From: Gammaproteobacteria bacterium
GTDB taxonomy: Bacteria; Pseudomonadota; Gammaproteobacteria; UBA9214
DNA: 42,001 nucleotides
Direction of reading: 5' to 3'
Assembly: GCA_003230545.1 (NCBI GenBank)
Contig: QIFB01000010.1
Coordinates: 1 to 42,001, forward strand
In this document: piece after piece, positions 2,382 through 34,036 of the stretch
Numbering within the stretch: the stretch's first letter is position 1
Layout of the letters: the number at the start of each line of letters is the position of its first letter
Made by a program: the position numbers and the translations under genes
Notes under the pieces: generated by a model
Told to the model about the DNA's origin: nothing
What the model saw: the letters and a program-made list of their open reading frames with translations, nothing else
Database searches by the model: none

Positions 2382-2810
2382 CTAGAGTTCCAGTGGCCTG
2401 GGTTGCTGGGCGGCGTGGCGGTGGTCCGGTCCCGCGTAGACCTTGAGCTTGCGATACATGGCACGACCCAGCGGGTTTTTCGGCAACATGCCCTTGACGG
2501 CCAGCTCAATGACCCGTCCCGGCTTTCTTTCCTGCAGCTTTTCGAAACTGATCGATTTCAGGTTGCCCACATAGCCGGTGTGGTGGTGATACATCTTGTC
2601 GGTCACCTTGTTCCCCGTCACCCGCACCTTGTTGGCATTGATAACAATGATATAGTCGCCGGTATCCACATGCGGCGTATATTCCGGCTTGTGCTTCCCG
2701 CGCAGACGGCGTGCCACTTCCGAGGCCAGCCGCCCCAGGGTCTTGTCGGCTGCGTCAACGACGAACCAGCCATGGTTCACCTCGTGCGGTTTTGCGGAAA
2801 ATGTCCCCAT
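2382..2810 (-). CDS. rplM: 50S ribosomal protein L13
   Basis: [54 protein letters not shown]; adjacent to rpsI. Confidence 0.98.
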
Positions 2811-2899
2811 CAGAGTCGCTCCGATACTGCCCAGAATACAAGAGCGGGGATGTTACATAAGCGGCTGGAAACTTACAAGACTCGGCCTTATTGCGGGCA

Positions 2900-2933
2900 A
2901 AAAAAAGCGCGGTTCGTAAACCGCGCTTGATAA
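2900..2933 (-). terminator. Intrinsic terminator-like hairpin upstream of rplM
   Basis: Minus strand AAGCGCGGTTTACGAACCGCGCTTTTTTTTGCC: perfect stem plus U-tract, about 90 nt before the rplM start and about 215 nt after the ferredoxin stop. Confidence 0.75.
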
Positions 2934-3145
2934 AACCTCCTTGGGGGGAGGTGGAGGAGCACTGACTGGCTAATGAAGATAGGGGGGCAAGCCAATCAGC
3001 GTGTTAGCATTCTCTAATATACTGGCGGAGAAGTCAAGCGTCGAAATGATTTACTTTGCAGTTAGCGGCGGAAAATACGTATCTATCTGTTTTTAAATGT
3101 ATTGTAAAAACTTAGTAGGAATAACTTACAGAATTGCGACCGTGT

Positions 3146-3454
3146 CTAGATCCGCAGACGCTCCACGATGCGCCCGTTGACCAGGTGTTCCTCGATGATT
3201 TCATCGACATCTGACTGATCAATATAGGTATACCAGACCCCTTCCGGGTACACGACCAGCACCGGGCCCTCCTGGCAACGATCGAGACAGCCGGCCGTAT
3301 TGATACGCACCCCGTCGCGCCCGGCGATCCCGAGCTGCTTGCTGCGCAGCTTGGCGTAAGCGCGCATGCCCTGCGCATCGAAGCGCTGGCAGCAGTCACT
3401 GCCATCGGTGCGCAGGTTGGTGCAGAAAAATACATGGTAGCGGTAACAGGCCAT
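3146..3454 (-). CDS. (2Fe-2S) ferredoxin domain-containing protein (thioredoxin-like ferredoxin)
   Basis: MACYRYHVFFCTNLRTDGSDCCQ...GVRINTAGCLDRCQEGPVLVVYPEGVWYT: four-Cys pattern of thioredoxin-like ferredoxins. Start moved to internal Met. Confidence 0.88.
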   Translation of the reverse strand: MACYRYHVFFCTNLRTDGSDCCQRFDAQGMRAYAKLRSKQLGIAGRDGVRINTAGCLDRCQEGPVLVVYPEGVWYTYIDQSDVDEIIEEHLVNGRIVERLRI

Positions 3455-3532
3455 GCACGCACCATACAAGATGGTCGTCCGGCATGACAGCAGGCCCGGG
3501 ACGCGCTGTCATGAACATGCTATGTTGAATAC

Positions 3533-4177
3533 ATGCCCTCCAGGAACCGGAATTTTACCGATCACTGCATCGAGCAGCTCGACCAGGCGGTGCGCACCGT
3601 ATTTGGCGAACCCTCCGGATCAGACCGGTCCAACCCCGCAGAACCGCTGCAGGACGACGAGTTCACCGCTACCGGCCAGGCGGATAGCAGCTGCCTGATG
3701 CGCGTTAATCATGCGGGCGAGGTGTGCGCACAGGCGCTCTACCAGGGACAGGCGCTGACCGCCCGGAACCGTGCCGTCCGGGACCGGATGCAACAGGCCG
3801 CTGACGAGGAAAACGATCACCTGTCCTGGTGCCGGCAACGCATCGGGGAACTCGGCGGCCACACCAGCCTGTTGAACCCGGTCTGGTATACCGGCTCATT
3901 CCTGCTGGGTGCGGCAACCGGACTGCTCGGCGACAAGTGGAGTCTCGGATTCCTGGCAGAAACCGAGCAGCAGGTCGTCAAACACCTGGAAGGTCACCTG
4001 CAACGCCTGCCGGATAACGATAACAAGTCCCGGGCAATCCTCGAGCAGATGAAGACCGATGAGGCAAAACACCGGGAAACCGCCATCAACAGCGGCGGCA
4101 CCGAGCTGCCGGAACCGGCCAGGAAGGCCATGGCGCTGATGTCCCGCGTCATGACCACGATGGCCTACCGAATCTGA
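3533..4177 (+). CDS. coq7: 2-polyprenyl-3-methyl-6-methoxy-1,4-benzoquinone monooxygenase (di-iron)
   Basis: LMRVNHAGEVCAQALYQGQAL...EENDHLSWC...ETEQQVVKHLEGHL...DEAKH di-iron ligands. Confidence 0.95.
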   Translation: MPSRNRNFTDHCIEQLDQAVRTVFGEPSGSDRSNPAEPLQDDEFTATGQADSSCLMRVNHAGEVCAQALYQGQALTARNRAVRDRMQQAADEENDHLSWCRQRIGELGGHTSLLNPVWYTGSFLLGAATGLLGDKWSLGFLAETEQQVVKHLEGHLQRLPDNDNKSRAILEQMKTDEAKHRETAINSGGTELPEPARKAMALMSRVMTTMAYRI

Positions 4178-4590: not shown

Positions 4591-4714
4591 GCATCCCCCG
4601 GAATCCAAGGACTGTGAAGCCTATCACAGTTCCCTGCGGGTCCAGACCGGGGTCTCAAGATCGCCGCCGCTGCGCCGATAGCAGCGTATGCTAGGACTTC
4701 CACAGGCCATTGAT

Positions 4715-5353
4715 ATGAACACCTCCAGGATCCCGGATGTTGCAAATCCCTGCGTCCAGCGGTTCCTGGAACATTGCCATCGACGCAAGTACCCTGGCAA
4801 AAGTGTCATCATCTATGCCGGCGATCAGCCGGACGTGCTCTATTACATTATCAACGGTTCGGTCAGTGTCCTGATCGAGGACGAAGACGGCCACGAAATC
4901 GTGCTGGCGTATATCAATGCCGGCGGGTTCTTCGGGGAGATGGGATTGTTCGGTGAACAGCCCAACCGCAGTGCCTGGGTGCGGACCCGCGGTGAGTGCG
5001 AAGTCGCGGAGATCAGCTATTCACGGTTTCGCGCACTCAGCAAGGAAGACCCGGATATCCTGCTGGAACTGACTGCCCAGCTGGCTACCCGGTTGCGCAA
5101 GACCAGCCGCAAGGTAAGCAACCTGGCGTTCCTGGATGTCACCGGGCGCATTGCGCACACCCTGCTGGAACTCTGCAAGGAACCGGATGCCATGACGCAC
5201 CCGGACGGCATGCAGATCAAGATTACCCGCCAGGAAATCGGCCGCATCGTCGGCTGCTCCCGGGAAATGGCCGGGCGCGTTCTGAAGGCGCTTACCGAAC
5301 AGGGCCACATCCTGGCCAAGGGCAAGACCATCGTGGTATTCGGGGCTAGGTAA
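4715..5353 (+). CDS. crp: cAMP-activated global transcriptional regulator CRP/Vfr
   Basis: [33 protein letters not shown] cNMP pocket and [26 protein letters not shown]. Confidence 0.92.
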
Positions 5354-7961: not shown

Positions 7962-9968
7962 TTATAATAACCCGCGCACTTTTTCCAGAGCATCGAACAG
8001 GGGAGCCATTTGTGACTCGTAGCGTTTCCATACGCCAATGACTTTTTCCGGTGGGGGCAATAAATCAGCTAACCGCTGATCGTTCCCGTTGGTAACAATG
8101 GCGCTTTTGTCAGACGGTAGTTTGCAAAAGCCCAGCACATCGTTCATCACTTTTTTCGGCTCGTGGACCAGCTCTTCAAACTGTACAATGTGCACATGAT
8201 CGGGCATTAACCTTGCCCAGTAGTCAAGCAGGTCTTCCTGCAACCGGTAATAGCTCGACAAGGTATCGAATTTGAGACTGTAATTGTTCCCGTTATCAAA
8301 ATTCTTTTTATATATTTCAGTGCAGGTGTCTTTCCCTTCCCTTCGACAGATAAGAATTTTCGACTCCGGCAGGCATAACCTGATCATGCCCAGATAGTCT
8401 GTGTTGGCCGGGTGAGTATTGGTTACCAGGGAAACCACCTGATAACTGCGCAGAAGACGATCCGCATAATCTTTACCGATCGCCGAAAATGGAGGTTCCG
8501 CAACAGCCTGCATGCATTCAGGGAATAAAGCTCCAGACAGTTTGCCCAGTTCGGCGTTTGCCGCAAGAATAAAATCGGATGATTCGCCTCCTGTAATGAT
8601 CTCTGGATGGATGCCAAGGACTGATTCAAGCAATGATTTACCGCTACGAGACATGCCGGTGATGAAAACAGGCGAGCAATCCCTGGAGCCTGCTAGTTCA
8701 TGCTGTCTCATGCAGCCTTCCGTAAATACAGATTTGATGGTTTCTATTTGCTTTTCACGGGCCTCTATATCGTAAGGATTCCTTTTTGACTTCAGGTCAT
8801 TTCCTTCCCTGAAGTATTCAAAGGCCTTCCTGTAGTCGCCATTATCATCACTGGATTTTCCAAGTGCATTCAGCAGGGAGGCCTTGTCGAGATCCCTCAG
8901 GCCATTGCGATCGAGTAATGCCTCAATCCTTCCCAGATCACTGGCGTGTTCGGCAGGTTCAGTGATGCGCAGATATCGGCAATTGGCCTGTATATATCCC
9001 GGATCCAGCTGTAATGCCTTTTTGAACGCTGTTACGGCATCGGCCTTGTGGTTGCCCGATTCCAGGGCCAGCCCCAGGTTGCAATGGATCTTCGGGTTCT
9101 GTGGATCGAGGGCAACAGAATCACGCAGCACTTTAATTGACTCTTCCTGCCTGTTCTGTTTTCTCAGAATTTTCCCAAGGACCAGATAAGAATCCTGCTC
9201 GTCAGGTTTGATTTTAATTGCCGTATCGATGGACTTCCTGGCTTCGATTAACTGTCCTTCCCGACAAAATATTTCTGCAATACTCGCATGCAGCGCAGCA
9301 TTGTCCGGCATCAGGGACAGCGCCTTGTCTAACAGTATGATGGCTTCCCCGGGTCCATGCAGGCGATACAGGGCATTGGCAAGTTCCAGACAGGCGTCAG
9401 TAAAGCGGGGATTTTTTTCAAGGGTTTCCTGCAGGAGCGGTATTGCCTTTTCGTACTCCTCCTGCTTGCAGAGGGCAGATCCGAGATTTGTTGTTATCTC
9501 GGGAGCATCAGGCATTTTCCTGCGAGCTGTTTCAAAGTATTTCACCGCATCATCCAGCCGGTGAAGCTTCATCATGACATTGCCCATGGTGTTATTGGCC
9601 AATGCGTGTTCAGGGTCTGCCTTGAGCGCCTGCTGCAGGATGGCCGACGCTTCCTTGTAGTTTTCCTGGAGATACAACACATTGCCAATGTTGCTCAGCA
9701 ACACCGGGTTACCGGGGGACTGCTGTAGCGCCCTGCGATAGGATTGCTCTGCTGCCTTCCATTTCTTCCTGGATGCGAGCACATTCCCGAGCCGGTTATG
9801 GGCCTCGGCAAGATCCGGCTGTACGGAAAGGCACTTGCGGTATTTTTTTTCTGCCAGACCCAGGTTACCCTGCTTCTCCGATTCCAGGCCCTGTTGGTAT
9901 ATGTGCAGGGCTTTCTGCCGGGCAGATGATCTTGCAGTGACAGTTGATCGGGCATTATGTTTATTCAT
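7962..9968 (-). CDS. TPR-repeat protein with C-terminal sulfotransferase domain
   Basis: 668 aa; tandem TPRs (e.g. PDLAEAHNRLGNVLASRKKWKAAEQSYRRAL...) then sulfotransferase-type PVFITGMSRSGKSLLESVLGIHPEI and RLCLPESKILICRREGKDTCTEIYKKNF. Confidence 0.85.
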   Translation of the reverse strand: MNKHNARSTVTARSSARQKALHIYQQGLESEKQGNLGLAEKKYRKCLSVQPDLAEAHNRLGNVLASRKKWKAAEQSYRRALQQSPGNPVLLSNIGNVLYLQENYKEASAILQQALKADPEHALANNTMGNVMMKLHRLDDAVKYFETARRKMPDAPEITTNLGSALCKQEEYEKAIPLLQETLEKNPRFTDACLELANALYRLHGPGEAIILLDKALSLMPDNAALHASIAEIFCREGQLIEARKSIDTAIKIKPDEQDSYLVLGKILRKQNRQEESIKVLRDSVALDPQNPKIHCNLGLALESGNHKADAVTAFKKALQLDPGYIQANCRYLRITEPAEHASDLGRIEALLDRNGLRDLDKASLLNALGKSSDDNGDYRKAFEYFREGNDLKSKRNPYDIEAREKQIETIKSVFTEGCMRQHELAGSRDCSPVFITGMSRSGKSLLESVLGIHPEIITGGESSDFILAANAELGKLSGALFPECMQAVAEPPFSAIGKDYADRLLRSYQVVSLVTNTHPANTDYLGMIRLCLPESKILICRREGKDTCTEIYKKNFDNGNNYSLKFDTLSSYYRLQEDLLDYWARLMPDHVHIVQFEELVHEPKKVMNDVLGFCKLPSDKSAIVTNGNDQRLADLLPPPEKVIGVWKRYESQMAPLFDALEKVRGLL

Positions 9969-14730: not shown

Positions 14731-15485
14731 GATGCCGACCTGCCGCTGTGCAACCGTTCCGTGTCCCGCGCCACATCGATAAACACCTCTTCCAGGGTAT
14801 CCCGCCCGTACTTTTGCAGGAGTTTCGCGGGTGAGTCGCGATCCACCACCACGCCCTGGCGCAGCATGATGACATCGTCACACAGGCGTTCCACTTCCAG
14901 CATATTGTGCGACGCCATCAGCAGGGTCGCGCCAGCCTCATTCCGGTAGTCATTCAGGTGGCCGCGGATGATGTCTGCCGTATCCGGATCCAGGGATGCC
15001 GTGGGTTCGTCCAGCAGCAGTACCTCCGGGTGATTCAGCAGGGACTTGGCCAGGGCAACCCGGGTGCGCTGACCGGCCGACAGGGTACCGTAGGGGCGAT
15101 TCAGAAAGCAGTCAATGTCGAACTGAGCGGCAAGTACCTTGATCCGCTTGCCGGCTGCACGCACCCCGTAGAGACGGGCATACACGATCAGGTTCTCGCG
15201 CACCGTGAGCCGCTGCGGCAAGTCCACATAGGGGGAAGACAGGTTGACGCGCTCGAGCACCCGGTAACGGTGCCGCAGCATATCGGTCCCCAGCAAGGCA
15301 ATCCGCCCGGCGGTCGGTAACAGCAGGCCAAGCAGCATGGACAGCAGGGTTGTCTTGCCGGCGCCATTGCCACCCAGCAGCGCACACACCGAACCACGCT
15401 CGACGCTGAAGGAAACATCATTTACCGCGAGCACGTCATCATAACGTTTGGTGACGTTATGCAGCTCGATAACGGTGTCAGGCAT
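14727..15485 (-). CDS. ABC transporter ATP-binding protein
   Basis: Walker A GGNGAGKTTLL, signature LSAGQRTRVALAKSLL, Walker B VLLLDEPTASLD. Confidence 0.95.
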   Translation of the reverse strand: MPDTVIELHNVTKRYDDVLAVNDVSFSVERGSVCALLGGNGAGKTTLLSMLLGLLLPTAGRIALLGTDMLRHRYRVLERVNLSSPYVDLPQRLTVRENLIVYARLYGVRAAGKRIKVLAAQFDIDCFLNRPYGTLSAGQRTRVALAKSLLNHPEVLLLDEPTASLDPDTADIIRGHLNDYRNEAGATLLMASHNMLEVERLCDDVIMLRQGVVVDRDSPAKLLQKYGRDTLEEVFIDVARDTERLHSGRSAS

Positions 15486-15597
15486 AGAACGGGATTTCCG
15501 GTCAGGGTTTGTTATTCATTTGCAAGATACGCGCCGGACGGATTATGCCAGATCGTGTACATGGCAGGCAGCACGCAATGCAGTAAATGATCTGTTC

Positions 15598-16470
15598 TCA
15601 TGATTGCACAAGTCCCGTAACCCCGTCCCGGGTGCACTTCCGCCCCGCAAGCGTACAGGCCTGCTCGAGGATTGCGGACGTATCCAGTCCGGCGAGGCTG
15701 CCGTTGATGATGGCCGCATTGAAGGTATCGCCCGCACCGAGGGTATCGATGACCTTGCCCGGTGCAACGCCCGGATGCCGGAATACCCGGCCCCGGTAGT
15801 CGATCGCAACTGCACCGTCCGCACCCCGGGTACAGCAGGCGAGTGCTGCCGGGTGATCCGCATGGATGGCCTGTAACAACCACTCCGGTTGTTCATAACC
15901 GCGCTGACGCGCATAGTCCCCTGAAAACAGCAGCACATCGGCAAGACCGAACAGGTCCTCGATACCATCCCGCGCCTTTTCCACTTCCAGTGAACGCGGG
16001 ATGGCGGGATGGTGTTCCCGTGAGCGCTGCAGCATAACCTGCAAGGCCGCAATGTTCCGGCCCTCGAAATGCAGCCAGTCGAACGGCTGTAAATCCAGCG
16101 CTGCAAAATCTGTCGTTGATAGCTCGGGGAGGTCGCGATAATGCACAATCGTGCGCGATCCGGTGGCTGCACTCAACAGGACGGACGAGACCGGCGTGCT
16201 GCCGCTGTCGCAGGTCCGGCATGGCGCAATATCAATACCGTTGTCCAGGAGGTCGGCGCTGACCTGCCGGCCAGCGCTATCGTCGGCCAGCACCCCGGCA
16301 AAGCTGCAGGCATGGCCGAGTCCGGCAAGCACCACCAGCAGGTTCGCGGTGTTTCCACCGCGGCGGTATTTTTGGTTGCTGCAACGGATTTCCGCGTTCT
16401 CGTGCGGATACGCACCCACCTGATAAATGATATCCAGTGTGGCATTGCCGATGCCAAGGATGTGCGCCAT
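15598..16470 (-). CDS. PfkB-family carbohydrate kinase
   Basis: MAHILGIGNATLDIIYQV...RRGGNTANLLVVLAGLG and DTLGAGDTFNAAIINGSLAG. Confidence 0.9.
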   Translation of the reverse strand: MAHILGIGNATLDIIYQVGAYPHENAEIRCSNQKYRRGGNTANLLVVLAGLGHACSFAGVLADDSAGRQVSADLLDNGIDIAPCRTCDSGSTPVSSVLLSAATGSRTIVHYRDLPELSTTDFAALDLQPFDWLHFEGRNIAALQVMLQRSREHHPAIPRSLEVEKARDGIEDLFGLADVLLFSGDYARQRGYEQPEWLLQAIHADHPAALACCTRGADGAVAIDYRGRVFRHPGVAPGKVIDTLGAGDTFNAAIINGSLAGLDTSAILEQACTLAGRKCTRDGVTGLVQS

Positions 16471-16518: not shown

Positions 16519-19500
16519 TCAGTCGGTACGCACCACCCGAAAGCCGAGATTATCCAGGCGGGTGTCGTGGTCATACTGGCCACGCCTGGTACTGCGTATG
16601 CTGTCGATCGGGCTGGTATAGGCACCACCACGGATCACGCGCTGGGTGCAGCGGCGCGCCTTCCGGGCACTGCCGTCCGTTGCCGCAGCCTGGTAGTTGG
16701 CGTGGTAACAGTCCTCGACCCATTCCTGTGCGTTGCCGGCAGTGTCGTGCAGCCCGAAACCGTTGGGGCTGAAGCTGCCGACCGTGGTAGTGCGCTTGCC
16801 GTCCCACTGGTTACCGCAGTCAAAGCAGTTGGCCGGGACTTCGGCTACCTCCTCATCCCACCAGTAGGGCTGTGTCGTACCGCCGCGTGCGGCAAACTCC
16901 CATTGTGCTTCGGTTGGCAGCCGGTAGTCATGGCTGGTTTGTTTCGACAGCCAGGTTGCATAGGCCGTTGCATCTTTCCAGGATACGTTGATGACCGGCT
17001 GATCCTGGCGTCCCCAACCTTCATCGTAGGGCAGCCGGCGGCCGGTTGCGCGAGCGAACCGGTCATACTCGGCAAAGGTGACTTCGGTTTTACTGATCGA
17101 GAAGCCTTGCAGGTCAACCTGGTGCTGTGGCCGTTCGTCGAAATTCATGGAATTCGGCGCACTGCCCATAATAAACGCGGCATCCGGCAGTTCCACCATC
17201 GACGGACCGTTGCCACCACCCTTCAGCGCATCCCGGTATGCACGCACCGGTGCAACAGGCGGCAATGCGACCGGTTCGGGCGGTGCACTGTCGTCAACCC
17301 GGGCCTGGTCCTGACCGGGGCTGGCGACTGTGACCGGTTTTGCGGCCGGCTTGCCGGCTGTGACTGGCGGTCGGGATACTGCTGGCGGAGTGCCGGTAGC
17401 CGGCGCCGGTGCAGCCTCTCCGTCCGTGTCAGTCACAACCCCGGGTTCGTCAGTAGCCAGACTCAACGGGTTCCCGGGCTGCAGCAGCAACCAGGCTACC
17501 AGCGTAGCGATGGCAACCACGCCGAGGCCGATGACCTTGCCCAGCCAGCCATGGCTGTCCTTACCGGTTACTTCAATCCCCGGGCGGACCTCCGGGACCG
17601 GCGCCGGATCAGTTGCGGTAAACGTGGCAGCGGTGGCCGGTGGCGCCGGCTTATCTGCCGGGGGTTCTTCATCCAGTGACGGAATTTCCAGCGGCGCAGC
17701 CACAGCGCCATCCTGACCGTGTCCGGCACGCAGCGTCTCCATCTGCTGCAGTGCCTTGTCGCGCTGCGCCTCGGCCTCGGTGCGCAGGCGTACTGCAATT
17801 TCGATATTCCTGCGGAACTCTTTCAGCTCGGCGCGCAATTTTTCCGGGTCTTCCAGCTGGCCTTCCTCATCCGTGTTCATCAGGCCACGCGCCACCTCAA
17901 CCTCGACCCGCAGTGTATTCAGCTGCTCACGCGTAGCCTGCTGTTCATCCAGTGCGGTATCGCGCTCCCCGGTCAGCAGCTTCAACTGGGTCTCCAGCTG
18001 CTCAATGGCCGTGTCAGCTTCTGATTTCTGCTCCCGAATCAGTTCCAGGTCTGTCAGGCTGCGCTCCCGCTCCTGCCGGACCGCCTCCGCGGTCTCTGCG
18101 TGCGCCTTGTTCAGGTCATTCTGCAATGCCGTCAGCTGTTCCTCTGCCGGGTCGTTACCGGCCAGTTCCTGTTCCTGCAGCTGCTTCAGACGCGAACGTT
18201 CTTCTTCGCGGACATCATCCCGGGCACGTTCGAGCGCGCCTTCCCGGGATGAAAGTACCTCCTCATGCTTGCTGGCAATGGCAGCGAGCTGTTCCTTCAG
18301 CTGTTTCTGGCGCGCTGCAAGCTCGGCCCGCTCCTGTGCCCGGTCACGCCGCTCGGCCTGCAGCTCTTCCCGGAAATGCCCGGCGCCGGTACGCGCATCA
18401 TCCCGTGCCGCCTGCAGATCATTGGTCGACTGCTCCAGCTTCTTGCGCAACCGCTCGAGCTGGCCCTGTAGCTCCTTTTCTAACTCATTCTTCCGGTTCA
18501 GATCCTCATAGGCCTTGCTCAGTGCATCCTGGTTATCGAGGTCATGTGTTCTTGAACGCTCTTCCGCAGCCTGCAACTCCTTCCCGAATTCACTGCGCTC
18601 TTTTTCCAGCCCGGAAACCTGCTGTTGCAGTTCCTGCTTTTCTCCGTTCTCCTGATCGATTACCTGTTGTAACGACTCGATTATTCCGGCCTGTTCACCG
18701 GACTGCCGCTGCAGCTCCCCGGAATTCTTTTGTGCGGCTTCAAGCTGCTCACCAAGCAACCCGACCTCATCGTCTGCAGCACCCGTTAACGCGGCAATAC
18801 GCTCATTCAGCTTGCCCAGTTCCTGTCCCTGCGCAGTGTTCTGCTGCTGTGACTCATCGAGTTGCTTCCTGAAACTGTCACACTCGGCTGTCGCTGTCTG
18901 CAACTGTTCCGCGCGCACCGAGTTTTCCTGCTTGAGCTCCAGGTAACGCAGCTCCTGCTGCTCCAGTTTCTCGTTGTTTTTCCTGGTGTGGGTTTGCTGC
19001 TGCTTTTCGAATTTTGCCTTGTCCTTATCAGCCTGATCCCGCAATTTCTGCGTCTGCGTTTCAAGTTTCTCAAGCTGCTTCTGCCGGTCCTGAATCTCTT
19101 TCTGCAGTGTTTTCTGCCCACTGCTTGACTCATCCTGCAGCCGTTCCAGCGCGGTTTCCGATGCCTGCGCGGCTGCACCTGCATTTTCGAGTGCTTCCTG
19201 AAGTTTCTGCTGCTGCACCTCAAGCTGGCGGTTTTCGGCGCACAGTGTTTCCTGCTGCTGCCCGGCTTCCTGCAAACTGGCACTGAGAGTTTCGTGCCCG
19301 GAAGATGTCGAGTTCAGTTGTTGTTGCAGCGCCTCGACCTTCCTGTCAGCATCGGCAAGCCGGTCAGACACGGCCGTATTTTCCCGGTGTGACAGCTCCA
19401 GCTCACCACGCAGGGTATCCATCTCACTGTTATGCTGCTTTATGCCGGAGGCTGCCTGTCCGGCAACCGTCTCCTGCTCTTCCCGGGCAGCCGCGATACC

Positions 19501-21306
19501 GGTTTCCAGTCCGGTAATCTGCCCTCTGGCCTGTTGCAGTTCCTGCTGCAGCCCTTCCACTACCTTGTTATGGTCGGTCGCCGAGTCATCCGCACGCTTG
19601 ACTGCCAGTTGTTGCTCAGTGTGCGCCGAGTTAATCGAAGCCTCGAGCATCCCGGCCTGCTGCCGCGACTGCTCCAGCTCGGTTCGCAACTGATCCGCAA
19701 GCTGCTGCTGTCCCGCATACTGCCCCTGCAGTTGTGCGCGTTCCTCGCTGGCCTCGCTGGATTCGGTCTGCAGCCTCGACAGCATGTCACCGGACTCCGT
19801 GAGCTGTTTCTCCAGCTGCGTTACCCGCTCCGTGTATTCATCCTGCAGGGCAGCGTATTGCTCGCGGACCAGCCGGGTCTCGTCTGCGCCGGACTGTTGT
19901 GTATGTTGCAGGCCGGCGAGCTGGTCCTGTGCCTCGCGCAGTGCATTCTCCAGCCGCTCGACATCCGCCTGGCTGTCTACCAGGCCACGTACGGTGTTCT
20001 CATGGTCACTGGCTGCCTGCCGGAGCCCGGTGTTTTCCCGACGCAAGGCCGTGATTTCCTCGAGCTGTTCCGCAGCCGGGTTTATTTCCTGCACAGCATT
20101 AGCGGCCACCGCTGCGGCAGGCGCTGCGGCCGGGCTGGCTGTGGCTTCCGGCTCATCCGCAGCCAGGTCACTACTATCCGCACCTGGCTGGCCGAATTCG
20201 ACCGAGACCACGGCCCCGCCCTCGCTGGCCACCGGTGGTGTATCCCTTGTCTGTTCAGCCGCCGGACTCAGACCATTCATCCCGCCATCGAGCACATATA
20301 CCTCATATCCCTTGTGGCTGAGGATAAAGGCAGCCGAGGAACTGCGGCGCCCGGTATCACAGCAAATAATGTATTTCACGTTAAAAACCAGTTCGGGGAG
20401 CTCACCGCGCAGGTCTGACAGGGGAATATTGACGCTGTCTTCAAAGGCACCGGCCTCGTACTCGCCTGGCGAGCGCACGTCGATCCAGACTGCACCGTCA
20501 TCGACCATTGCGGATGCCGTCTCAAAATCGAGGTTACTGATCAGGTGTTTCTGCAACAGCTCGACAAAGTCCTTTTTGGCGAGGCGCATCAGCACACCGT
20601 CTGTCAGCATGGTCACCGTGGCATTGCGCCGGGCATCCGAGACCAGCGCCTCTTCACCGAAACAGTCGCCATCCGACAGCTCGGCCAGCTTCAGGATTTC
20701 GCCGTCAGGGGCGTCCTTGCGGGTGACCGCACACTGGCCCTGGTGGATGGTATAGAAATAGTCTCCCTCGTCCCCCTGGTTGATTACCGCCTTGCCGGCA
20801 CGTACGGGGACGGATTCCATCTTCATCAGCAGACGCTGGATAATGGCCGGCGGAATCTTGATGAAGACCTCCGACTGGAGAATCCGCGTCATCCAGTCCT
20901 CGTTGCCGTCAGCCCGGATTTCAGTTGCCTCGGTGGACGTTGTCTGGTCCCAGGTCAGGAACACGTCCAGCAACCCGGAATCGATCCGTGCGATCACGAC
21001 CTTGGTTACGGCACGGGCCGTCAGGGGTCGCGGTTGCTGGTTTGCAATCGGGTAACGGCTGACGTCGGTACCGGCTTCCACTTCACTGGTAACCTTGCGG
21101 TGGCCATCAATCAGGTTGATTTTTCCGTCCAGCAGGTAAAATGACTCGTTATTGCGGTCACCCTTGCGGAACAGGTAGCGTCCCTTGCGGACCTCCTCGA
21201 TGACGATTTTCCTGGCGACCTCCGCAAAACGGCTCTCCGACAACGCATTCAGCGGAACCAGGTCCTGGAGGTATTTTTTATTATCCGGTTTTGTCGCTGC
21301 GCCCAT
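16519..21306 (-). CDS. Giant multidomain protein: 2x cNMP-binding-like, rhodanese, long coiled coil, TM helix, FGE/SUMF1-like domain
   Basis: 1595 aa. cNMP-like KGRYLFRKGDRNNESFYLLDGKINLIDG and AVINQGDEGDYFYTIHQGQCAVT...ELSDGDCFGEEALVSDARRNATV; rhodanese VWIDVRSPGEYEAGAF...YIICCDTGRRSSSAAFILSHKGYEVYVLDGGMNGL; about 700 residues of Q/E/L-rich coiled coil; TM GWLGKVIGLGVVAIATLVAWLLL; FGE-like MVELPDAAFIMGS...FGLHDTAGNAQEWVEDCYH...NLGFRVVRTD. Confidence 0.9.
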   Translation of the reverse strand: MGAATKPDNKKYLQDLVPLNALSESRFAEVARKIVIEEVRKGRYLFRKGDRNNESFYLLDGKINLIDGHRKVTSEVEAGTDVSRYPIANQQPRPLTARAVTKVVIARIDSGLLDVFLTWDQTTSTEATEIRADGNEDWMTRILQSEVFIKIPPAIIQRLLMKMESVPVRAGKAVINQGDEGDYFYTIHQGQCAVTRKDAPDGEILKLAELSDGDCFGEEALVSDARRNATVTMLTDGVLMRLAKKDFVELLQKHLISNLDFETASAMVDDGAVWIDVRSPGEYEAGAFEDSVNIPLSDLRGELPELVFNVKYIICCDTGRRSSSAAFILSHKGYEVYVLDGGMNGLSPAAEQTRDTPPVASEGGAVVSVEFGQPGADSSDLAADEPEATASPAAAPAAAVAANAVQEINPAAEQLEEITALRRENTGLRQAASDHENTVRGLVDSQADVERLENALREAQDQLAGLQHTQQSGADETRLVREQYAALQDEYTERVTQLEKQLTESGDMLSRLQTESSEASEERAQLQGQYAGQQQLADQLRTELEQSRQQAGMLEASINSAHTEQQLAVKRADDSATDHNKVVEGLQQELQQARGQITGLETGIAAAREEQETVAGQAASGIKQHNSEMDTLRGELELSHRENTAVSDRLADADRKVEALQQQLNSTSSGHETLSASLQEAGQQQETLCAENRQLEVQQQKLQEALENAGAAAQASETALERLQDESSSGQKTLQKEIQDRQKQLEKLETQTQKLRDQADKDKAKFEKQQQTHTRKNNEKLEQQELRYLELKQENSVRAEQLQTATAECDSFRKQLDESQQQNTAQGQELGKLNERIAALTGAADDEVGLLGEQLEAAQKNSGELQRQSGEQAGIIESLQQVIDQENGEKQELQQQVSGLEKERSEFGKELQAAEERSRTHDLDNQDALSKAYEDLNRKNELEKELQGQLERLRKKLEQSTNDLQAARDDARTGAGHFREELQAERRDRAQERAELAARQKQLKEQLAAIASKHEEVLSSREGALERARDDVREEERSRLKQLQEQELAGNDPAEEQLTALQNDLNKAHAETAEAVRQERERSLTDLELIREQKSEADTAIEQLETQLKLLTGERDTALDEQQATREQLNTLRVEVEVARGLMNTDEEGQLEDPEKLRAELKEFRRNIEIAVRLRTEAEAQRDKALQQMETLRAGHGQDGAVAAPLEIPSLDEEPPADKPAPPATAATFTATDPAPVPEVRPGIEVTGKDSHGWLGKVIGLGVVAIATLVAWLLLQPGNPLSLATDEPGVVTDTDGEAAPAPATGTPPAVSRPPVTAGKPAAKPVTVASPGQDQARVDDSAPPEPVALPPVAPVRAYRDALKGGGNGPSMVELPDAAFIMGSAPNSMNFDERPQHQVDLQGFSISKTEVTFAEYDRFARATGRRLPYDEGWGRQDQPVINVSWKDATAYATWLSKQTSHDYRLPTEAQWEFAARGGTTQPYWWDEEVAEVPANCFDCGNQWDGKRTTTVGSFSPNGFGLHDTAGNAQEWVEDCYHANYQAAATDGSARKARRCTQRVIRGGAYTSPIDSIRSTRRGQYDHDTRLDNLGFRVVRTD

Positions 21307-26580: not shown

Positions 26581-26763
26581 ATGAAGAATTCACTTGCAGA
26601 ACCCCAGCAACCGGCAAAAGCAAAACCGCAAAAGAGCCTGAGCATGCATGACGGCACTGCCGTGTGGTGCGATTGCTGCTCGTGCGAGATGGAGCCCTAC
26701 TGGGCCGCGGTCGCGGAAGAAATGGGAATTGACGTCTATAACGACTACGAGGACGGCGAATAA
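26581..26763 (+). CDS. Small Cys-rich hypothetical protein
   Basis: MKNSLAEPQQPAKAKPQKSLSMHDGTAVWCDCCSCEMEPYWAAVAEEMGIDVYNDYEDGE; 60 aa with WCDCCSC. Confidence 0.45.
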   Translation: MKNSLAEPQQPAKAKPQKSLSMHDGTAVWCDCCSCEMEPYWAAVAEEMGIDVYNDYEDGE

Positions 26764-27656
26764 CCAAAGTCCGGCCGCATGGTTTCCGTTACCAGCGCAT
26801 CAATCTGCGCCAGCTGCGTGTCGTCAAAGTAGTCGCGGTAGCCACCCACCTTGGCGCGCCGGACCTTGTAGGTATTCGGATCGCCCTTCTTGCCCGGCAC
26901 CAGACGTGCGCCACTGGCGCGGAACGCGTTCTTTTCCTCGAGCTTCTTCATGTTTTCGTAGGCGGCAAATTCCACGGCATCATGGATCTCGGCAGTGGTT
27001 CCGGGGGTATCCATAAAACCGAACAGCCGCTCCAGCGCCGTTACCGGGTCGCGGCGCATATCCTCGTAGCGCAGCACCAGACTGGCCTCGACTTTTGGCA
27101 GTTCCTGTGCCCAGATGTTGAAGAAGCGGATTATGCACGGCAGGCCGGCATCCTCGTTCATGATGAAGTCGAACAGGGGAATGTCGCTGTTATGTGGCGG
27201 GTACCAGTTGAGCTCCTTCTTGCGGCGTTTCATCCGGTACTTCCACTGGAAGAACTGGGAGACTGCCACGTCGCGCGGATCGCGGACCAGCATAATGACC
27301 TTTTTACCGTAGAACTCGGCCTTGTCATCCCAGTTGCCGGTGTAGTTGCGGAGATAATTACTGTGAGTAAAAAACACGCGCGGTACCGCGGGATTGATGC
27401 GATGATAGTTGTCAAAACCCAGCATGTATTTTTCCGGAATGCCTAATTTCTGCTGGTAGTAGCGCGACATCATCACCCGCAGCCAGGTTCGTCCGCTCTT
27501 GCCCCACGACATCAGTACGTAGTCCGTTTGCTGCAGCTTGCGGTTTTCCTCGCGGCCGCGCAGCCAGCGGTCGACCCTGATGCGCCGCTGTCTCGGCAGA
27601 ACGAGACACGGCAGCAGGATCAACTCCCGCGTAATGGCAGGCCAGACATCGTGCAT
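26745..27656 (-). CDS. Sulfotransferase domain protein
   Basis: SWGKSGRTWLRVMMSRYY (PAPS 5'-phosphosulfate loop), VIMLVRDPRDVAVSQFFQW, VLRYEDMRRDP, DPNTYKVRRAKVGGYRDYF. Confidence 0.9.
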   Translation of the reverse strand: MHDVWPAITRELILLPCLVLPRQRRIRVDRWLRGREENRKLQQTDYVLMSWGKSGRTWLRVMMSRYYQQKLGIPEKYMLGFDNYHRINPAVPRVFFTHSNYLRNYTGNWDDKAEFYGKKVIMLVRDPRDVAVSQFFQWKYRMKRRKKELNWYPPHNSDIPLFDFIMNEDAGLPCIIRFFNIWAQELPKVEASLVLRYEDMRRDPVTALERLFGFMDTPGTTAEIHDAVEFAAYENMKKLEEKNAFRASGARLVPGKKGDPNTYKVRRAKVGGYRDYFDDTQLAQIDALVTETMRPDFGYSPSS

Positions 27657-28524: not shown

Positions 28525-29499
28525 GTGACGCCCCGCCATCCGAAACCCAGGACACAGACCATGCTCCAGGTAGTACACGCCGGCAGACAGCTGTTTCGCT
28601 CGATATGGAAAAAGCTCTCGCGCCGATTGTTGCGCGCGGCTCTGCTGTTCGCGTCCGAAGACCGTAAAACGGCGGCGGAACGCTGGCTTCGGGGGCGTGA
28701 ACAGAACCGGAAACTGCAGCAGTCAGATATCGTCATCGTTTCCTTCGGCAAGAGCGGGCGCACCTGGCTGCGGGTCATGCTGTCGCGCCTCTACCAGGTC
28801 AAGCATGGCCTGTCGCAACGCTACCTGATGGGGTTCGACAATTTTCACTACATGAACCGCGCCATCCCGAAGGTATTTTATACCCACGACAACTACATCA
28901 AGGACTACACCGGCAACGCGGACTCCAAGGTAGATTTCTATGACCGCAAGGTGGTACTGCTGGCGCGCGACCCGCGCGATGTCGCGGTGTCCCAGTACTT
29001 CCAGTGGCAGTACCGCATGAAGCCCAACAAGAAAATTCTCAACAAGTACCCCGGTGAAGGTAAAGAGGTTCCGATCTACGACTTCGTCATGGACAAGGAT
29101 GCCGGACTGCCCAAGGTGATCGAATTCATGAACCTGTGGACTCGTGAAAGCCCGCGCCTGAAAGGCTTTTTCCTGCTGCGTTACGAGGACCTGCGCACAG
29201 CGCCGGAAGCCACGCTGGAAAGGCTGCTGGAATTCATGGGGACGCCGGGAACACCGGAGGAAATCCACGATGCGGTTGAGTTCTCGTCCTATGAGAACAT
29301 GAAAATAATGGAGCAGAAAAAGACCTTCTGGCTCAGCGGTGGACGCATGGTGCCGAAGGACCGCGACAATCCGAATACCTACAAGGTCCGGCGCGCCAAA
29401 GTCGGTGGCTACCGCGACTACTTCGACGAGGCACAGGTCGCGCAAATCGAGACGCTGGTCAATGACACCCTGTCACCAGAGTTTGGTTACAACACATAA
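28525..29499 (+). CDS. Sulfotransferase domain protein (paralogue of 26745..27656)
   Basis: SFGKSGRTWLRVMLSRLYQ, VVLLARDPRDVAVSQYFQWQYRMK, LLRYEDLRTAP, NPNTYKVRRAKVGGYRDYFDE. Confidence 0.92.
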   Translation: MTPRHPKPRTQTMLQVVHAGRQLFRSIWKKLSRRLLRAALLFASEDRKTAAERWLRGREQNRKLQQSDIVIVSFGKSGRTWLRVMLSRLYQVKHGLSQRYLMGFDNFHYMNRAIPKVFYTHDNYIKDYTGNADSKVDFYDRKVVLLARDPRDVAVSQYFQWQYRMKPNKKILNKYPGEGKEVPIYDFVMDKDAGLPKVIEFMNLWTRESPRLKGFFLLRYEDLRTAPEATLERLLEFMGTPGTPEEIHDAVEFSSYENMKIMEQKKTFWLSGGRMVPKDRDNPNTYKVRRAKVGGYRDYFDEAQVAQIETLVNDTLSPEFGYNT

Positions 29500-33013: not shown

Positions 33014-34036
33014 ATGCAGGCCACTCTGAAAAACCGGATTCCGAATTCGACGGATAAACCGCTGCCACGCTGTATCGCCGAGATCGAGGGCATCGGCTAC
33101 CAGGACAGCGACCTGCCGGAGGCGCCGGTGGATTTCCCGGCCGGCTATTTTATTGTGGGCGCACCACGCTGCGGCACTACGGCCGTCAGCAAGGCGCTGT
33201 CACGCAATCCGCGCATCAGCTTTTCCAAACCCAAGGAGCCGCACTTCTTTCTCGAGCCCCGGCCCGGCTTGAGTCCGGATGAACTGCACCGGCAATACCT
33301 GTCACGCTACCACCGGGAACTCAACCCGGAGCACCAGGCATACGGTGACGGCTCGGTTTCCTACCTCTACGAGCCGGAGGCCATTCGGCGGGTGTTGCAA
33401 TTCGACCCGCGCGCGCAATTTATCGTGCTGGTGCGGAACCCGGTAGAGATGATGCGCTCGTATCACAGCCGCATGCTGTTTCAGCTGGACGAGGATGAAG
33501 TGGACTTTGCCCGCGCCTGGGAGCTGCAGGAAAGCCGCGCCGCCGGTCACAACCTGCCGCGGCGCTGCCGCGAGCCGATGCTGCTGCAGTACGCGTTCCT
33601 CGGCCAGCTCGGCATGCACCTCGAGCGCCTGTTCGAGGTGGCCGGCCGCGAACGCTGCCACGTCATCGTCCACGACGACTTCCGCGATGACCCGCGCGCG
33701 GTCTACCTGCGTGCACTGGAATTCATGGGAGTGGATGACGACGGCCAGGTCAAGTTCAAGCGTACCCGCGCCACCAGCAGCTTCAAATCGCCCTGGCTGC
33801 AGCAGTTCGTGATGAACCCGCCACCATGGACATTCCGGCTGATCGCAATCAGTAATTCCCGCATGTTGAAGCGGCTCAAGGGGGTGCGCAAGCGCATCAA
33901 GACCTGGAATTCCAGTGATGCCAAACCACGCCAGATATTCACCGATGAGGTGCGCGCCATGTTGCGGGATTATTTTGCGGACGATGTCGAGAAGCTGTCC
34001 GGATTACTGGCACGTGACCTGGGCGATTGGAAATGA
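33014..34036 (+). CDS. Sulfotransferase (heparan sulfate/NDST-like family)
   Basis: YFIVGAPRCGTTAVSKALSRNPRISFSKPKEPHFF, FIVLVRNPVEMMRSYHSRML. Confidence 0.9.
   Translation: MQATLKNRIPNSTDKPLPRCIAEIEGIGYQDSDLPEAPVDFPAGYFIVGAPRCGTTAVSKALSRNPRISFSKPKEPHFFLEPRPGLSPDELHRQYLSRYHRELNPEHQAYGDGSVSYLYEPEAIRRVLQFDPRAQFIVLVRNPVEMMRSYHSRMLFQLDEDEVDFARAWELQESRAAGHNLPRRCREPMLLQYAFLGQLGMHLERLFEVAGRERCHVIVHDDFRDDPRAVYLRALEFMGVDDDGQVKFKRTRATSSFKSPWLQQFVMNPPPWTFRLIAISNSRMLKRLKGVRKRIKTWNSSDAKPRQIFTDEVRAMLRDYFADDVEKLSGLLARDLGDWK

Follow-up and report, generated by a model that had tools for sequence, protein, structure and literature searches.

A single gene in the 42,001-nucleotide stretch of gammaproteobacterial DNA analyzed here (the window) encodes a 1595-aa protein in which a pseudo-cyclic-nucleotide-binding (CNB) domain, a second CNB domain, a rhodanese domain, a coiled coil of about 790 aa, one transmembrane helix, and an FGE/C-type-lectin-fold domain follow one another. 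The phosphate-binding cassette of the second CNB domain is intact and the rhodanese loop retains its Cys, whereas the FGE-like domain has lost the Cys pair of FGE, carries four other invariant Cys residues, and is joined in its relatives to a predicted cytoplasmic part that has been exchanged modularly. We tentatively interpret the protein as a single-pass inner-membrane receptor or scaffold whose FGE-like domain would act as a non-formylglycine ligand-binding module, a reading that we place somewhat short of an even chance.

16519..21306, minus strand: whole gene, 1595 aa; an open reading frame with homologues in 23/23 genomes of the source order.

The reading frame begins with ATG and contains no internal stop, and the plus strand across the same interval carries several. 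The domain search proposed in the initial annotation recovers cNMP_binding twice (4.1e-30), Rhodanese at residues 263-345 (1.1e-13), and FGE-sulfatase at residues 1367-1593 (1e-56), all of these Pfam matches exceeding their gathering cut-offs. The orientation of the protein is predicted mainly from one segment and its flanks.

17479..17535, minus strand: single transmembrane helix (aa 1258-1276), from hydropathy; one is also present in other fused homologues.
17209..17478, minus strand: Pro/Ala-rich, predicted periplasmic linker (aa 1277-1366) of 90 residues, from sequence.

The helix (KD 2.33) is the sole hydrophobic segment above threshold, and in nearly all homologues its N-terminal flank is rich and its C-terminal flank poor in K/R. 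The K/R-rich N-terminal flank indicates an N-in/C-out orientation, which in turn places the coiled-coil rod in the cytoplasm. The topology prediction thus supports cytoplasmic CNB and rhodanese domains and a periplasmic FGE-like domain. This location agrees with L107, a secreted form of the same FGE subfamily in which only a signal peptide precedes the domain, and with the likeness to the periplasmic protein PvdO. The initial annotation had assigned the two ends to the same sides; the rod, which it set between them, lies on the cytoplasmic side and not in the periplasm.

16528..17208, minus strand: FGE/C-type-lectin-fold domain (aa 1367-1593); Pfam match, AlphaFold2 pLDDT 94, TM score 0.85 to PvdO.
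16816..16827, minus strand: CxxC (C1494, C1497); C1494 in 50/50 and C1497 in 49/50 aligned domains, absent from aligned PvdO.
16708..16710, minus strand: C1533, which probably forms a disulfide with C1553; 50/50, at a position common to PvdO.
16648..16650, minus strand: C1553; 50/50, at a position common to PvdO.
16594..16629, minus strand: stretch aligned to the FGE catalytic Cys pair, GGAYTSPIDSIR (aa 1560-1571); both Cys absent in all homologues aligned.

The AlphaFold2 model of this domain, a check suggested in the initial annotation and built here from the family alignment, is a confident FGE fold (pLDDT 94, pTM 0.91). FGE structures match it at TM scores of 0.73-0.77, and PvdO from Pseudomonas (5HHA) is the best solved relative by sequence, by profile (8e-59), and by fold. 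The domain shares its fold and Pfam family PF03781 with FGE (SUMF1/FGE), but the catalytic, copper-binding Cys residues of FGE are both absent in all 50 relatives aligned. In the alignment with FGE chain 6muj, RGGAYT---SPIDSIRS stands opposite RGGSYLCHDSYCNRYRV; a deletion of 3 residues takes out the first catalytic Cys, and Ile stands in place of the second. No Cys occurs in this stretch in any of the 50 domains. The missing pair had been correctly recognized beforehand, yet its loss is a property of the whole PvdO-like subfamily rather than a peculiarity of this protein. Relocation of the pair within the domain, which would have overturned the earlier claim, is rejected, as C1494, C1497, C1533, and C1553 all occupy non-catalytic positions, two of them common to PvdO. 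A pattern search for the catalytic pair in the C59 FGE paralogue gave no match, but a looser control pattern went equally unmatched, so nothing follows from this result. N1525 and E1528, conserved in 50/50 domains, probably coincide with the calcium site of FGE.

Like the window's domain, PvdO lacks the catalytic pair and has Cys residues equivalent to C1533 and C1553; it differs as a stand-alone soluble protein of pyoverdine maturation that is devoid of the CxxC at 1494/1497, membrane anchor, rod, CNB domains, and rhodanese. PvdO is periplasmic, and the final oxidation of dihydropyoverdine depends on it, although the purified protein was inactive and had no detectable cofactor (PMC6206403). 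A Cys-less FGE fold can therefore be needed for a chemical step, so a reading of the domain as purely ligand-binding is not established. The corresponding alternative is a membrane-tethered, PvdO-type periplasmic enzyme that performs an oxidation without the FGE Cys pair under control of the nucleotide/sulfur head, in which the CxxC could be a redox or metal site. We regard it as doubtful, though worth serious consideration. The closeness to PvdO argues for it, as do a co-encoded Rieske protein and the invariance, across the 50 domains, of an NCxxCG motif and numerous polar residues, which goes beyond the needs of a bare fold. That Rieske protein, however, is predicted to be cytoplasmic, on the opposite side of the membrane; the CxxC has no counterpart in PvdO, itself inactive as purified; the score against the PvdO NCBIfam equivalog model (151.9 bits) lies far below its cut-off of 500; and the nearby genes scanned include none of pyoverdine type.

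The company kept by the FGE-like domain in other proteins speaks to the receptor reading. Members of the same subfamily, which share 43-75% identity with the domain in the window, occur in PP2C-transmembrane-FGE proteins (L098:5155-7029, L101:6581-8620), a further receptor-like transmembrane architecture; in a 611-aa caspase-transmembrane-FGE protein (L110:6088-7923); and in short proteins with a coil and transmembrane segment (L103-L105). Such joining to PP2C, caspase, or coil N-termini through one transmembrane helix is as expected of a receptor ectodomain. One of the short proteins, L103, occupies the same genomic place, ahead of PfkB and Rieske genes, its head lost or never present. Conversely, two long relatives, L092 and L093, keep head, rod, and transmembrane helix and end in a disordered, low-complexity C-terminus in place of the FGE-like domain; they weigh against the receptor reading, since the FGE-like domain is evidently dispensable to head and rod. 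The head is found on its own in a 558-aa paralogue of the source genome comprising CNB-CNB-rhodanese and a short coil (L045:12498-14174) and, in three genomes, at the C-terminus of SulP-STAS transporters (L046:6644-9451, L047:357-3161, L048:9629-12439), each adjoined by a gene for a SoxA/TsdA-like cytochrome c. By sequence, the latter proteins look like regulated sulfur-anion transporters. This pattern of swapping is the outcome expected of signal-input and receptor modules that can be interchanged and less so of a single-substrate enzyme. Close to the paralogue are a dsbB gene and one encoding TerB-DnaJ. Elsewhere in the source genome, L045:3002-5413 encodes an 803-aa protein that combines a transmembrane helix and four PEGA stretches with an FGE domain belonging to another subfamily.

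Between head and membrane lies the rod.

17737..20118, minus strand: predicted coiled-coil rod (aa ~397-1190), from periodicity and composition; length variable in homologues.
17776..18501, minus strand: membrane-proximal, strongly conserved coil part (aa 936-1177), kept in the source order and one other family (L078).

The coiled coil noted in the initial annotation is present, its length being about 790 aa rather than the 700 aa given there. It is rich in E/K/R/Q and almost free of Pro, and hydrophobicity recurs with a period of 3.5 residues in most of its segments. Coiled coils rise by 0.15 nm per residue, so the head-to-membrane distance of 368-1296 aa found among homologues would correspond to about 55-190 nm if wholly coiled coil. 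A fixed-length periplasmic ruler is accordingly rejected, given this variation and the cytoplasmic placement of the rod. Within the rod, conservation is highest in the approximately 240 aa towards the membrane, for which a profile is convincing outside the source order in L078 only and weak, with strong composition bias, in L081.

HubP/FimV-type scaffolds are large inner-membrane proteins with a single transmembrane helix and a long cytoplasmic part. HubP has been described as a large membrane-anchored landmark (PMC8789113). The window's protein resembles them in size, in its single inner-membrane helix, and in its long cytoplasmic part, and differs in carrying an FGE-like domain instead of LysM and in the opposite order of its parts. 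In principle, then, it might be a structural organizer, an inner-membrane-anchored cytoplasmic rod that positions machinery and is only tuned by its sensor domains, which we judge unlikely. In its favor, coiled coil accounts for half of the protein, almost all fused homologues carry a large rod, the conserved 240 aa near the membrane resemble a partner-binding surface, and relatives retain rod and helix when low-complexity sequence stands in for the periplasmic domain; gspA and gspB also lie close by in the source order. Against this, the CNB2 and rhodanese motifs are far more constrained than the rod, the head also occurs by itself and in transporters, Pfam detects neither LysM nor another known landmark domain, and the closeness of gspAB belongs to a long conserved gene order.

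The N-terminal head, on which the receptor reading relies for its cytoplasmic side, comprises the following features.

20947..21249, minus strand: CNB1 (aa ~20-120), pseudo cyclic-nucleotide-binding domain; Pfam, alignment of 41 heads, AlphaFold2 beta-roll.
20545..20805, minus strand: CNB2 (aa 168-254), cyclic-nucleotide-binding domain; Pfam, with PKG/PKA best by profile and fold.
20617..20661, minus strand: CNB2 phosphate-binding cassette FGEEALVSDARRNAT (aa 216-230), from the alignment of 41 heads.
20272..20520, minus strand: rhodanese domain (aa 263-345), Pfam.
20341..20361, minus strand: rhodanese active-site loop CDTGRRS (aa 316-322), from translation; Cys in 39/41 heads.

In CNB2, residues F216, G217, E218, R227, and A229 of the cassette (pattern FGEEAL...RNAT) are invariant in 41/41 aligned heads, the Glu and Arg of the phosphate-binding cassette among them. 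CNB1 lacks the FGE-L cassette and has a conserved QPR motif in its place; the conservation of this motif across the 41 heads marks CNB1 as a conserved pseudo-domain rather than a decay peculiar to this genome, and judged from the alignment it cannot bind nucleotides in the canonical manner. The description of the first domain as degenerate was thus accurate, as was that of an intact CDTGRRS loop. The active-site Cys of the CxxGxRS loop, C316, is kept in 39 of the 41 heads and replaced by Ser in L080 and L092, which implies that sulfur transfer is not universal among homologues. An AlphaFold2 model of the head from the family alignment gives a plausible CNB-CNB-rhodanese arrangement (pLDDT 84, pTM 0.55), in which the individual domains are good and their mutual placement is uncertain.

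The PKG and PKA regulatory domains are the nearest solved tandem CNBs by profile search and fold comparison, sharing the tandem arrangement and the FGE-x-AL...R-x-A cassette of the second domain; here, by contrast, the first CNB has no cassette, and a rhodanese and a rod follow instead of a kinase. The rhodanese shares PF00581 and the six-residue CxxGxR loop with the single-domain rhodaneses PspE and GlpE but is embedded in a membrane-anchored, predicted sensor, and its Cys is not universal. The source genome carries four class III nucleotide cyclase genes, so a cyclic-nucleotide ligand can be made.

The gene is also linked to particular neighbors.

15598..16470, minus strand: PfkB-family kinase gene, directly downstream, a conserved neighbor; Pfam and linkage in relatives.

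A PfkB gene, a Rieske gene, or both lie directly downstream in the same direction at 18/18 source-order loci and at 9/17 fused loci outside it, and likewise in L097, L103, and L111. In L111, the FGE-like gene is followed downstream by a fusion of the two into a single protein of 442 aa (2656-3984), and the Rieske protein of L031 has CPH and CATH metal-ligand motifs. Unlike nearly all relatives, the window has no Rieske gene between PfkB and the ABC transporter (15485-15598), and a search of the rest of the source genome gave a distant match only; the genome G008, of the same genus, has a Rieske gene after PfkB. The other neighbors, namely TerB-like, HspQ-like, and HU-like genes, gspB and gspA, rpe, trp genes, and crp, form a conserved gene order to which we attach no function. 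The crp gene noted in the initial annotation is indeed nearby (4688-5353), at 11.2 kb rather than about 12 kb. A functional link to it is rejected as incidental, since it lies beyond the trp genes in this long order. The 42-kb contig also contains four sulfotransferase-domain genes, at 7962-9968 (minus), 26745-27656 (minus), 28525-29499 (plus), and 33014-34036 (plus); one is a TPR-sulfotransferase gene between trpG and trpE, with no such gene in the fetched relatives.

Under the receptor or scaffold reading, the protein would lie with its N-terminus inside and its C-terminus outside and would probably dimerize through the long cytoplasmic coiled coil. The periplasmic FGE/C-type-lectin-fold domain would be a disulfide-stabilized, non-formylglycine ligand-binding module, and the head may read cyclic nucleotide through CNB2, while C316 may carry or sense sulfane sulfur by persulfide or rhodanese chemistry. 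The rod, chiefly its conserved membrane-proximal 240 aa, could transmit between the ends, recruit partners, or both, and the PfkB kinase and the Rieske [2Fe-2S] protein encoded alongside may act in the same process. No recognizable output domain is found in the 1595-aa protein. In line with the earlier suggestion, cyclic-nucleotide or sulfur status may be linked to the periplasm; the transporters bearing a CNB-rhodanese head and the Rieske neighbor make a sulfur/redox link the more plausible.

Proteins in which a CLec domain is linked to a kinase, STAND, or TIR module are known (PMC10907252, PMC7159879). Such membrane-bound FGE/CLec receptors likewise join an exchangeable cytoplasmic signaling part to an FGE/CLec domain, but here the interior holds CNB-CNB-rhodanese and a giant coil, and the domain is not diversified. 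FGE/C-type-lectin folds are the usual targets of diversity-generating retroelements, and periplasmic CLec receptors on signaling proteins have been described in Thiohalocapsa (PMC10907252); a diversified antigen sensor is nevertheless very improbable here and is rejected, as the C-terminal stretch, the site of the variable repeat in such targets, ranks with the best-conserved regions of the protein rather than forming a hypervariable surface. A Pfam scan of window genes showed no reverse transcriptase or template repeat among those covered.

Homologues occur in all 23 genomes sampled from the source order. Each retrieved contig of the order that contains the full gene has it in one-ORF form, including a 1745-aa version on the single 2.6-Mb contig of G008. 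Across the class, 98 of 185 genomes in a spread sample have a strong match to some part of the protein, and in 15 further gammaproteobacterial families, represented by 17 genomes, both ends reside in a single ORF of 1322-1984 aa, with identities between families of about 47% for the head and 53% for the ectodomain. Distances of the head and the FGE-like domain are correlated among 30 fused proteins (Mantel r = 0.84, 0/2000 permutations) and among the 17 outside the source order (r = 0.72, 0/2000 permutations), which indicates that the two ends have mostly travelled together; the head tree calls for three switches between the fused and the stand-alone state, so the parts have at times been split or rejoined. 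A search of plasmids gave partial matches only, with no place covering 80% of the query. Stand-alone CNB-CNB-rhodanese genes and separate FGE genes do exist elsewhere, but the same order as one ORF in independent genomes, together with the co-divergence of the parts, leaves an assembly or frameshift artefact a negligible chance, and it is rejected. The phylogenetic profile proposed in the initial annotation therefore upholds the uninterrupted, genuine single gene described there, its homologues not being consistently separate. From these sequence comparisons the family is old, and its age and its retention in every sampled genome of the source order suggest that it probably does something the cell needs.

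Every domain of the protein is known, as are FGE/CLec domains on signaling proteins (PMC10907252, PMC7159879). The combination of CNB, rhodanese, FGE/SUMF1, and coil, its breadth, and its linkage to Rieske and PfkB genes were not found in the searchable literature, whose incomplete coverage makes this weak evidence of novelty. With considerable reserve, we suggest that Gammaproteobacteria may possess in this family a widespread, undescribed system of transmembrane signaling. Its head would read cyclic nucleotide and sulfane sulfur inside the cell and be coupled, via a coil possibly longer than 100 nm, to an FGE/C-type-lectin ectodomain that does not make formylglycine. Rieske and PfkB proteins would be its conserved partners, and the CNB-CNB-rhodanese head would be a sulfur/redox input module of general use, present also in transporters of the sulfate-permease type. 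Bacterial proteins as large and as rich in domains as this one are usually annotated by the name of a single domain. The family makes three ideas testable: that a cyclic nucleotide can signal directly to the envelope with no transcription factor in between, that a rhodanese can serve as part of a sensor, and that an FGE fold lacking the Cys pair can be put to new use as the ectodomain of a receptor.
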